A stretch of DNA of 64,000 bases, from positions 124,001-188,000 of the forward strand of contig NZ_JAIUDQ010000007.1 of assembly GCF_020164435.1 (NCBI RefSeq). The letters run 5' to 3'. The notes beneath the pieces are model-generated. The model was not told the DNA's origin and ran no database searches. It worked only from the letters and a program-made list of their open reading frames with translations. The first letter of the stretch is position 1; every line of letters starts with the position of its first letter. Of the stretch, positions 51,361 through 54,943 are shown piece by piece. Made by a program: the position numbers and the translations under genes. The DNA is from Phyllobacterium lublinensis. Its GTDB lineage: Bacteria > Pseudomonadota > Alphaproteobacteria > Rhizobiales > Rhizobiaceae.

Positions 51361-52668
<1,308 letters not shown>

Positions 52669-52727: not shown

Positions 52728-53624
52728 ATGTCGCTTGATTGGGACAAGCTGCGAATATTTCACGCTGCTGCGGAGGCGGGATCTTTCACCCATGCCGCCG
52801 AGACGTTGCATTTGTCGCAATCGGCCATTTCCCGTCAGGTCAGTGCACTTGAGCAGGATGTTGGGGTACCACTGTTTCATCGCCACGCCCGCGGCCTGAT
52901 CCTGACCGAGCAGGGCGAGGTGCTCTACCGTACAGCGCATGAAGTGTTGATGAAGCTTGAAAATGTCCGCTCGCGGCTCACCGAGAGCAAGGACAGGCCC
53001 TCGGGAAAACTGCGCGTGACCACGACGGTAGGACTTGGTTCGGGCTGGTTGATCGAGCGTGTACAGGAGTTCATCGAACTCTATCCAGAAGTACAATTGC
53101 AATTGCTCCTCGACAATGAGGAGCTCGATCTGACGATGCGCCATGCCGATTGCGCCATACGCCTGCGCCAGCCGCAACAGCCGGATCTTATCCAGCGGCG
53201 GCTGTTTACGGTGCACATGCATGTCTATGCGTCACCGGCCTATATTGCCAAGTATGGCAAGATAGAAAGCATCGAAGAAATCGACTCCCATCGCATCGTC
53301 AGCTTTGGTGAACCTGCGCCGTCCTACCTTACCAATCTCAACTGGCTTGAGGTAATCGGTCGGACTGATGGCAATTTGCGGCCGGCAGTGCTGCAGATCA
53401 ACAATCTCCTCTCCATCAAGCGGGCGATCCAGAGGGGTGTCGGTCTGGGCGTCCTGCCGGACTACATGGTCGAGAAGGATTCGACACTGGTCAGGCTGTT
53501 GCCGGAAATGGAATTACCATCCTTCGATACGTTTTTCTGCTATCCGGAGGGAATCAAGAATGCTGCCAAATTGCATGTGTTCCGAGATTTCCTTTTCTCA
53601 AAGGCTCGCACCTGGTCGTATTAG
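52728..53624 (+). CDS. lsrB: LysR-family regulator of the LsrB/VtlR type
   Basis: Predicted 298 residues. LDWDKLRIFHAAAEAGSFTH with LHLSQSAISRQVSALEQDVG is the LysR HTH, and the remaining part is a periplasmic-binding-like effector domain with Cys142 and Cys271. Location right after trxB and near lrp/lpsB matches S. meliloti lsrB and Brucella vtlR, which control symbiosis or virulence, oxidative stress and LPS; VtlR is known to activate an AbcR small RNA. ATG 52728 follows GGGGAGAAACTGCGCA. An AbcR-like gene with a LysR box lies just downstream. Confidence 0.86.
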   Translation: MSLDWDKLRIFHAAAEAGSFTHAAETLHLSQSAISRQVSALEQDVGVPLFHRHARGLILTEQGEVLYRTAHEVLMKLENVRSRLTESKDRPSGKLRVTTTVGLGSGWLIERVQEFIELYPEVQLQLLLDNEELDLTMRHADCAIRLRQPQQPDLIQRRLFTVHMHVYASPAYIAKYGKIESIEEIDSHRIVSFGEPAPSYLTNLNWLEVIGRTDGNLRPAVLQINNLLSIKRAIQRGVGLGVLPDYMVEKDSTLVRLLPEMELPSFDTFFCYPEGIKNAAKLHVFRDFLFSKARTWSY

Positions 53625-53751: not shown

Positions 53752-53766
53752 ATGCATTCGCTGCAT
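53752..53766 (+). promoter_or_regulatory. LysR T-N11-A box upstream of the AbcR-like RNA
   Basis: ATGCA-TTCGC-TGCAT is a perfect palindrome containing the T-N11-A pattern (T53753 to A53765). Its centre is about 65 nt before the predicted RNA start, the usual place for a LysR activator recognition site. The lsrB-like gene ends 127 nt before it. Confidence 0.65.
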
Positions 53767-53788
53767 GGGTGCGTTGCACAAATGGGTG

Positions 53789-53817
53789 TTGCGATGACGC
53801 GTCAAAACCCTCATATC
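53789..53817 (+). promoter_or_regulatory. predicted promoter of the AbcR-like RNA
   Basis: TTGCGA (53789-53794) and CATATC (53812-53817) with a 17-nt spacer give a start near 53824. Both elements are imperfect, as expected for an activator-dependent promoter. Confidence 0.55.
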
Positions 53818-53823
53818 CACATC

Positions 53824-53942
53824 ACTTGCCGGTGCGTCTCCTCCTCCCATTGCGCGCCCGCAAGTGTTCCCCTCTGGAGGTTTAGCCGGAAACGGCACCT
53901 TCAAAACTTAAGGCCGGGCAATTGTCCGGCCTCTTTTCTTTT
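53824..53942 (+). ncRNA. abcR: AbcR-like trans-acting small RNA (alpha-r15 family)
   Basis: Three structured parts. First, CACTTGC / GCAAGTG with GGTGCG / CGCGCC form a long stem (53823-53866) whose loop TCTCCTCCTCCCATTG holds an anti-Shine-Dalgarno. Second, an exposed TTCCCCTCT is followed by a stem with a GAAA tetraloop (GCCG-GAAA-CGGC, 53885-53896). Third, a terminator GGCCGG / CCGGCC (53912-53931) ends in TCTTTTCTTTT. Length about 119 nt, loop motif, and location next to an lsrB/vtlR gene all match AbcR, which represses ABC transporter mRNAs with Hfq. The start is predicted, not measured. Confidence 0.78.
53912..53942 (+). terminator. intrinsic terminator of the AbcR-like RNA
   Basis: Six-bp GC stem GGCCGG / CCGGCC, loop GCAATTGT, then TCTTTTCTTTT. 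It has no protein gene to terminate except lsrB, 290 nt upstream. Confidence 0.85.
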
Positions 53943-53962: not shown

Positions 53963-54943
53963 TTATCGATAGAGCGGCTCGCTCTCGAGGCCCGCATACA
54001 GTGACGCGACCTGTTCTCCATAGCCGTTGAACAACAGGGTCGGGACGGTTTCTCCGGTATGCAGGACGCGCTCCTGGGCCTGGCTCCAGCGAGGATGGGC
54101 GACCTCCGGGTTGACGTTGGCCCAGAAGCCGTATTCGTTCGAGGCCAAACCCTCCCAGAAGCTTACCGGGCGTTGATCGGTGAATGTGATCTTGCGGATG
54201 GATTTGATCGACTTGAATCCGTACTTCCAGGGTAGGGCGAGGCGTATGGGCGCGCCGAACTGGTTCAACAGAGGCTTGCCATAGGCTCCAGTGACGATGA
54301 ACGCCAGGTCATTGGCGGCTTCCGCCATCGTGACGCCTTCGACATAGGGCCAACTATAGAGGAAGCCATTCTGTCCACTTGCCATGGACGGATCGTTGAA
54401 CGTCTCGAACCGAATGTACTTCGCTGCTGCTGTTGGCTTGGCGAGTTCAACAAGCTTTGCCAAGGGGAATCCGGTCCACGGAATTGTCATTGACCAGGCC
54501 TCCACACACCGATGGCGATACAGGCGTTCTTCCAACGGGATTTTGGCTTCGAGGTCGACGAAGGCCACAGTGAAGGGCTTGTCCACCATTCCGTCTATCT
54601 CGATGTCCCAAGGATTGGTAATGAGTGTCTGCGCTTCCGTCCAGATGTCCTTGTCGCCGCCGAACTCATAGAAATTATTGTATTTCGAATTGATCTCTTC
54701 CGGGGTGAGACTGCGGTCGAGCTTGTAGGCTTCGTTGCGTTTTGCCGGATAGAGGGCAGGGTTACCGGATGCCTTGGGTGCGGCTTGTGCGTTTGCCAGC
54801 GCTGGGAGGAGCGCGCTTCCGGTTGCTGCCAGCGCACCCATGCCCCAGGCCTTAAGGATCGAACGCCGATTAAGGAACGCGTCTTCAGGGGTGGCCGAGG
54901 CTTCAGCAAGCGTCCAGCTCGGTTTTTGGTGAATAGCAAACAT
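53963..54943 (-). CDS. msrP: protein-methionine-sulfoxide reductase catalytic subunit MsrP (YedY)
   Basis: A 326-residue periplasmic molybdoenzyme that repairs oxidised Met. Tat signal NRRSILKAWG (about 33-42), cofactor-binding YNNFYEFGGDKDIW, the Mo-ligand Cys in YRHRCVEAWSM, and PWKYGFKSIKSI. ATG 54943 is chosen because GCGAGGAC precedes it; the ATG at 54967 adds eight residues. The membrane haem partner msrQ is not adjacent on either side, so it must be elsewhere or absent. Confidence 0.93.
   Translation of the reverse strand: MFAIHQKPSWTLAEASATPEDAFLNRRSILKAWGMGALAATGSALLPALANAQAAPKASGNPALYPAKRNEAYKLDRSLTPEEINSKYNNFYEFGGDKDIWTEAQTLITNPWDIEIDGMVDKPFTVAFVDLEAKIPLEERLYRHRCVEAWSMTIPWTGFPLAKLVELAKPTAAAKYIRFETFNDPSMASGQNGFLYSWPYVEGVTMAEAANDLAFIVTGAYGKPLLNQFGAPIRLALPWKYGFKSIKSIRKITFTDQRPVSFWEGLASNEYGFWANVNPEVAHPRWSQAQERVLHTGETVPTLLFNGYGEQVASLYAGLESEPLYR

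Follow-up and report, generated by a model that had tools for sequence, protein, structure and literature searches.

A candidate LsrB-activated AbcR1-type small RNA beside lsrB in Phyllobacterium

The DNA considered here, referred to as the window, is a 64-kb stretch of the genome of Phyllobacterium lublinensis (G000:C42:124001-188000), and the genome that was searched along with it spans 4.53 Mb in 44 contigs and is 88% complete. On the plus strand, region 53752-53942 of the window carries an LTTR-type box and a weak promoter, followed by a three-hairpin RNA that ends in an intrinsic terminator. It is highly likely that this RNA is an AbcR1-type (ar15) trans-acting sRNA which is activated by LsrB and acts as an anti-Shine-Dalgarno repressor of transporter and catabolic mRNAs. 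The system itself is already known, and because activation of AbcR by VtlR or LsrB has been published for three genera, Agrobacterium, Sinorhizobium and Brucella, the novelty of the locus is lower than was implied in a first-pass annotation of this DNA. A term search of the available literature found no paper naming Phyllobacterium together with AbcR and sRNA, and the present analysis places this plant-associated genus firmly within the LsrB-AbcR circuit. The features of the locus are as follows, with +1 taken as the start of the Rfam match at 53824.

51694..52668, plus strand: trxB, thioredoxin reductase (Pfam Pyr_redox_2, 9.4e-52; start codon chosen by us)
52728..53624, plus strand: lsrB/vtlR orthologue encoding a 298-aa LysR-type regulator (Pfam HTH_1 and LysR_substrate)
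53752..53766, plus strand: perfect T-N11-A palindrome ATGCATTCGCTGCAT, centred at -65, upstream part of the candidate LsrB box
53753..53778, plus strand: extended candidate LsrB box TGC-N7-GCATnGnTGCnnTGCA, -71 to -46, zero mismatches in the genome scan
53763..53775, plus strand: published LsrB motif GCAT-N3-TG-N3-T, here GCATGGGTGCGTT, -61 to -49
53789..53794, plus strand: -35-like hexamer TTGCGA, its TTG invariant in the genus alignment
53812..53817, plus strand: -10-like hexamer CATATC, its CATAT unchanged across all 20 genus genomes
53824..53937, plus strand: AbcR1-type sRNA, Rfam RF02345 (ar15 = AbcR), model positions 1-112
53824-53865, plus strand: hairpin 1, with CTCCTCCC (53841-53848) inside the loop
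53841..53848, plus strand: aSD1 CUCCUCCC in the loop of hairpin 1, found in all 20 genus genomes
53867..53874, plus strand: aSD2 UUCCCCUC, CU-rich and exposed (TTCCCCTC), in the linker that joins hairpins 1 and 2, without variation among the 20 genus genomes
53875-53903, plus strand: hairpin 2, which includes the GAAA-loop stem
53911-53932, plus strand: terminator hairpin, followed by CTTTT (intrinsic terminator 53911..53937 in the terminator scan)

Assignment of the RNA to the AbcR family, which the first-pass annotation had proposed, is borne out by a covariance search in which RF02345 matched 53824-53937 over the full length of the model (67.3 bits against a cut-off of 40, E 1.4e-11). This was the sole Rfam match at gathering thresholds within the window. 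The loop motif, the exposed CU-rich stretch and the GAAA-loop stem described in that annotation were all located within the RNA, and the terminator it described was recovered by the terminator scan. Its estimate of ~119 nt for the length of the RNA has to be lowered, as the span of the Rfam model predicts an RNA of ~114 nt if the start at 53824 is assumed. The RNA has the traits of the ar15 family: three stem-loops with compensatory changes, an aSD1 located in loop 1, and an aSD2 in the stretch that separates SL1 from SL2. Its minimum free energy is -52.2 kcal/mol (z = -5.75), a value as low as which was reached by none of 200 shuffles. Covariation was counted on the window RNA's own MFE fold across 33 aligned lsrB-linked homologues, 24 of them distinct, with 20 from the genus and 13 from named relatives. 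Within this alignment 94.6% of the cells were paired, both sides had changed in 11 of the 33 pairs, and the covariation score was 0.272 compared with 0.035-0.083 when the partners were slid. Changes on both sides occurred in all four helices, including 3 of the 9 pairs of helix 4, which is the terminator. The outermost A-U pair was broken in 12 of the 24 alignment rows, and the GAAA-stem was unpaired in ~10% of cells, with a shorter loop in some relatives. Further pair types were not more numerous than in shuffles, 231 of 500 of which reached the same number.

The terminator hairpin begins 287 nt 3' of the stop codon of lsrB, and transcription of lsrB could end there as well. It might be supposed from this that no regulatory RNA is present and that the hairpins are no more than a transcription terminator, or the tail of the lsrB mRNA, and resemble AbcR by chance. 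This explanation is scarcely credible in view of the full-length family match, the both-side changes in every helix and the conserved seeds, and in view of the RNA's own conserved promoter and box and its separation from lsrB in one congener (G015, described below). RF02346 (ar35) was considered as the AbcR model and set aside, as it describes a different family whose three matches in the genome lie elsewhere. A degenerate tandem copy 3' of the RNA was also rejected because only 25 bases lie between the Rfam end at 53937 and the end of a minus-strand ORF at 53963, which leaves no room for one before the next gene. That gene encodes a molybdopterin oxidoreductase according to Pfam, and we take it to be msrP/yedY.

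The LysR-type protein encoded upstream of the RNA, which the first-pass annotation had taken for the probable activator, is an orthologue of LsrB and VtlR by alignment. It is 65-98% identical to the products of nine lsrB genes that lie beside ar15 matches (two of these matches, L033 and L034, fall just under the cut-off), and 99% identical to proteins of P. bourgognense and P. sophorae. The gene order in the window is trxB-lsrB-abcR, as published, and corresponds to the trxB-vtlR-abcR1 order of A. tumefaciens, where VtlR binds and activates abcR1 (PMC7486931). In A. tumefaciens these genes are followed by a tandem abcR2 and arsR (PMC7486931), whereas in the window the minus-strand molybdopterin oxidoreductase gene comes next. 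By analogy with these relatives, the lsrB gene beside the RNA very probably switches the RNA on. Window LsrB has exactly two cysteines, Cys142 and Cys271, which with an offset of 2 appear to be the equivalents of the conserved pair C144/C273 in A. tumefaciens LsrB, a protein in which changing C273 raised peroxide sensitivity (PMC11975290). Published relatives suggest that the circuit in Phyllobacterium may likewise be under redox control. Cys142 is kept in 80 of 80 named relatives and Cys271 in 42 of them. Alanine replaces the C273 equivalent in the other 38 (e.g., L066, L070 and L072), 33 of which are titled Mesorhizobium, and the boxes of many of these 38 read GCATGYGTGTGTT; redox sensing by LsrB of this alanine type may differ. 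One lsrB locus titled Bacillus subtilis (L059, JAHREI010000004.1) is 80% identical to that of the window and probably comes from a mislabelled or contaminated assembly.

The promoter of the window copy has its two hexamers 17 nt apart, as described in the first-pass annotation, and the core of its -10 element is invariant, but it is weak, and a scan for sigma-70 consensus promoters found none. Such a weak core promoter suggests the need for an activator. The LsrB motif GCAT-N3-TG-N3-T was placed at -61 to -49 of the S. meliloti abcR1 promoter (PMC8844928), and its position in the window is the same. This short motif has 906 matches in the genome, compared with 176 for a reversed-pattern control, and is so frequent that only its position and conservation lend it credibility. 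The palindrome reported by the first-pass annotation is indeed perfect, but its conserved form, ATGC-N7-GCAT, is on its own not above chance in the window, where 2 were seen and 2.5 expected. The palindrome gains meaning because it is conserved, with ATGC-N7-GCAT preserved by 19 of the 20 genus genomes amid flanks that have diverged, and because it adjoins the published LsrB motif. Since the extended box was derived from the genus alignment, its match in the window is not independent, while four further matches in the genome are. The Brucella VtlR motif CAATGCAGCCATGCA (reverse complement TGCATGGCTGCATTG) agrees with TGCATGGGTGCGTTG of the window at 13 of 15 positions (PMC12595884); an exact match of the window to the generalised form of this motif is exact by construction. 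Judged by sequence, 53753-53778 is very probably the LsrB site that drives the weak promoter.

The RNA and both anti-Shine-Dalgarno seeds are present in all 20 genus genomes; 19 of them have the extended box in exact form, at -70 to -72, and 19 have the published LsrB motif. The exception is G001, in which the upstream half-site is missing and neither the exact form of the extended box nor the published motif occurs. The lsrB gene lies directly upstream of the RNA in 19 of the 20 genomes. In G015 (L315, G015:C15:895000-904000) the insertion of an ORF of ~350 codons on the opposite strand has parted lsrB from the abcR box; lsrB is there ~1.5 kb upstream and the box remains with the RNA. Beyond the genus, 80 named lsrB loci were searched by pattern for AbcR seeds within ~1.7 kb downstream, and the seeds were found in 66. 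The pattern missed the RNA in 14 of the 80 loci, and for L043, L044, L046 and L053 an ar15 match lies ~1.5 kb past the searched stretch. The published motif stands upstream of the RNA in 62 of the 66 loci, 61 times at -75 to -81 from aSD1, and is missing from 4, though the 62 loci are not independent cases because many of the named species are closely related. Among 31 copies compared, 8 have a site of the extended-box form starting at -71, 3 of these 8 with 2-3 mismatches.

Alternatively, the RNA could be a genuine AbcR RNA that is constitutive or regulated in some other way, in which case the box would be an ancestral relic and the LysR protein would control other genes. Precedents exist, as Brucella, A. 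tumefaciens and S. meliloti each have one AbcR copy that does not depend on VtlR/LsrB (PMC7486931, PMC8844928). Dependence on LsrB is moreover disputed for S. meliloti, where deletion of lsrB changed neither AbcR copy according to one report (PMC7486931), whereas AbcR1 was undetectable in an lsrB mutant according to another (PMC8844928). A relic box is nevertheless unlikely, given that 19 of 20 congeners keep it at near-fixed spacing amid diverging flanks, including the one in which lsrB has been displaced, and that the published motif occurs at 62 of the 66 named loci. The weakness of the core promoter and the RpoH-type promoter found instead at the genome's other AbcR copy also argue for activation of the window copy by LsrB.

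That other copy modifies the statement in the first-pass annotation that a single copy was seen, which is true of the window but not of the genome. A second ar15 RNA (55 bits) is located at C12:194878-194973 (L005), on another contig and hence not in tandem, near acyltransferase-like and penicillin-binding-protein-like genes as judged by eye. Its promoter, CTTGAA-N16-CCTATTT, matches the S. meliloti RpoH1 consensus CTTGAA-N16-CCTATAT (PMC8844928) at 12 of 13 positions, and an equivalent of this copy occurs in 20 of 20 genus genomes with the CTTGA of the promoter invariant. We infer from this promoter that the second, non-tandem AbcR plays the part of AbcR2. Tandem second copies with RpoH-like promoters do lie beside lsrB in two genomes of the same family (G022 and G030), and one could ask whether the window copy is itself of the RpoH type, AbcR2-like rather than AbcR1. 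The consensus is absent from the window copy and is matched almost completely by the other copy of the genome, which makes this reading exceedingly improbable and leaves the window copy as AbcR1. Copies away from lsrB scored 9-11 of 13 against the consensus in the Brucella-group genomes examined, P. leguminum and two Mesorhizobium-like genomes, and tandem copies scored 11 and 12 in two of three same-family tandem genomes and 8 in the third. The RpoH score alone is not decisive, because three Mesorhizobium second copies scored 6-8 and the lsrB-adjacent copy of G021 scored 10. A division between LsrB and RpoH of the control of two AbcR copies can hold without a tandem arrangement. Each of the 20 genus genomes has 2 to 6 ar15 matches, one of the six in G001 being under the cut-off, and some congeners carry further AbcR copies, several with LsrB-like boxes. 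The genus genome G010 has the same three ar15 places as G059, the genome to which the P. bourgognense locus belongs. For Mesorhizobium huakuii 7653R, one paper states that Smr15C1/C2 (AbcR1/2) had not been discovered (PMC5596092); ar15 matches beside lsrB are present in the Mesorhizobium relatives examined. Four relatives have an ar14 RNA at a distance of 400-460 bp from an RpoH-type AbcR copy (G062:C1:214148-214793, G063:C1, G064:C1 and G070:C1).

Among published systems, AbcR1 (Smr15C1) of S. meliloti resembles the window RNA in lying beside lsrB, in having the LsrB motif at -61 to -49 and in forming three stem-loops (PMC8844928, PMC3712013), and its aSD1 CUCCUCCC and aSD2 UUCCCCUC are identical to those of the window (PMC8844928). 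It differs in that abcR2 is in tandem beside abcR1 (PMC8844928, PMC3712013). Brucella AbcR2 is activated by VtlR (PMC12595884, PMC7486931); it lies beside vtlR, with the other copy elsewhere, an arrangement shared by P. lublinensis. Work with reporters and mutants in S. meliloti demonstrated both the activation step by LsrB and the aSD1- and aSD2-mediated repression of transporter mRNAs (PMC8844928). Following these examples, LsrB would bind the box at -71 to -46 as a class-I-type activator and recruit RNA polymerase to the weak housekeeping promoter, giving rise to the RNA of ~114 nt. The RNA would expose its two anti-Shine-Dalgarno sequences, one in loop 1 and one in the linker, and by pairing at ribosome-binding sites these would prevent the translation of transporter and catabolic mRNAs. 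By the same analogy, the RNA probably depends on Hfq.

A scan of the genome for complements of aSD1 and aSD2 before ATG gave 25 and 16 matches, respectively. Matches followed by an ORF of 40 aa or more (putative starts) numbered 21 for aSD1, representing 20 genes, and 8 for aSD2, representing 7 genes. Pfam transporter domains are encoded by 5 of the 20 aSD1 genes and 2 of the 7 aSD2 genes, and a sixth aSD1 gene (L177) encodes a transporter-associated TOBE domain behind an apparent internal Met. The control AAGGAGGT had 9 matches, 5 of them with an ORF, and 2 of these 5 were ABC transporter genes. The genome-wide scan thus yielded plausible candidates and is compatible with repression of transporter mRNAs, but showed no enrichment of transporter genes over the control pattern. 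A candidate seed site precedes a LivK-type gene (L176).

The most interesting lead to come from the analysis, and one of more interest than the window RNA itself, concerns a possible connection of LsrB with DUF1127 genes and ar14 RNAs. NfeR1/ar14 RNAs are like the window RNA in being anti-Shine-Dalgarno RNAs with an LsrB box, but they constitute a different RNA family with three CCUCCUCCC loops (PMC10746234). Control of NfeR1 by LsrB (PMC10746234) and of DUF1127 genes by VtlR (PMC12595884; Atu1667: PMC7486931) has been published. At no more than one mismatch, the extended box has five matches in the genome, the window included, compared with ~0.4 expected for 15 fixed bases at equal base frequencies; at up to two mismatches there are 32 matches versus 7 for the reversed-pattern control. 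Four of the five precede AbcR or NfeR1-type (ar14) RNAs. Apart from the window, three of the four precede kinds known to be controlled by LsrB or VtlR, namely an NfeR1-type RNA or a DUF1127 gene:

C10:66827: candidate LsrB box with zero mismatches, 46 bp before an ar14 RNA of 83.1 bits (L162, C10:66661-66852)
C1:488587: candidate LsrB box, then a DUF1127 gene (Pfam 2.5e-15), then an ar14 RNA of 111.2 bits (L165, C1:488216-488612)
C6:95580: candidate LsrB box, then a DUF1127 gene (Pfam 1.8e-16), then an ar14 RNA of 101.4 bits (L166, C6:95580-95967)

No Rfam match was found near the remaining box (C1:406038, L164, at most one mismatch) at E 0.1. The ar14 RNA on C10 has three CCTCCTCCC loops. The DUF1127 gene and the ar14 RNA share a strand on both C1 and C6, and the box on C6 reads on the strand opposite to the DUF1127 gene. 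The box thus precedes three of the four ar14 RNAs of the genome; the fourth, on C9, has only a site with 4 mismatches. In other congeners, the box occurs at no more than one mismatch in 21 of the 24 ar14 loci examined (the misses being L238, L246 and L256), these 24 being the loci returned or fetched, a subset of the ar14 matches. Of 15 genus genomes searched, 14 show the order box-DUF1127-ar14, which also occurs in several related genera. From 17 genomes of related genera, 30 ar14 loci were returned, some of them neighbours in one array that share a single box, and 9 of the 30 have the box at no more than one mismatch. A DUF1127-like ORF lies within 500 bp upstream in 20 of these 30 loci, 14 of the 20 having a box at up to two mismatches. 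DUF1127 genes in other genomes were called by a loose text pattern, and the two of P. lublinensis by Pfam.

From this arrangement we are inclined, without great confidence, to think that LsrB serves as a single switch for nearly all anti-Shine-Dalgarno sRNAs outside the RpoH branch, and that box-DUF1127-ar14 forms one protein-plus-sRNA transcript. If so, a single LsrB-driven transcript would encode a DUF1127 small protein and contain the ar14 RNA within its 3' part. On this view, the DUF1127 genes that VtlR activates in Brucella and Agrobacterium would be protein-plus-sRNA units of the CIN1 type, and hidden RNAs would account for part of the VtlR/LsrB phenotype. Whether Atu1667-type genes act through the small protein or an sRNA was left open in the report on them (PMC7486931), and the conserved order in relatives suggests that both could be at work. 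Linkage of DUF1127 with cuckoo RNAs defines the CIN1 locus, which in Rhodobacter is under RpoH promoters (quoted in PMC10253847). In the portions of the literature available to the search, no paper joining LsrB, DUF1127 and NfeR1/ar14 in one unit was found, and among papers on LsrB the word 'cuckoo' was met in reference lists only; Reinkensmeier and Giegerich (2015), which lay outside the search, may say more. A further RNA family in the genome is ar35 (RF02346), whose three members (L001, L002 and L003) share TTGACCACGGATGTACTGGCACTG; every one of the 20 genus genomes has at least two matches to this family.
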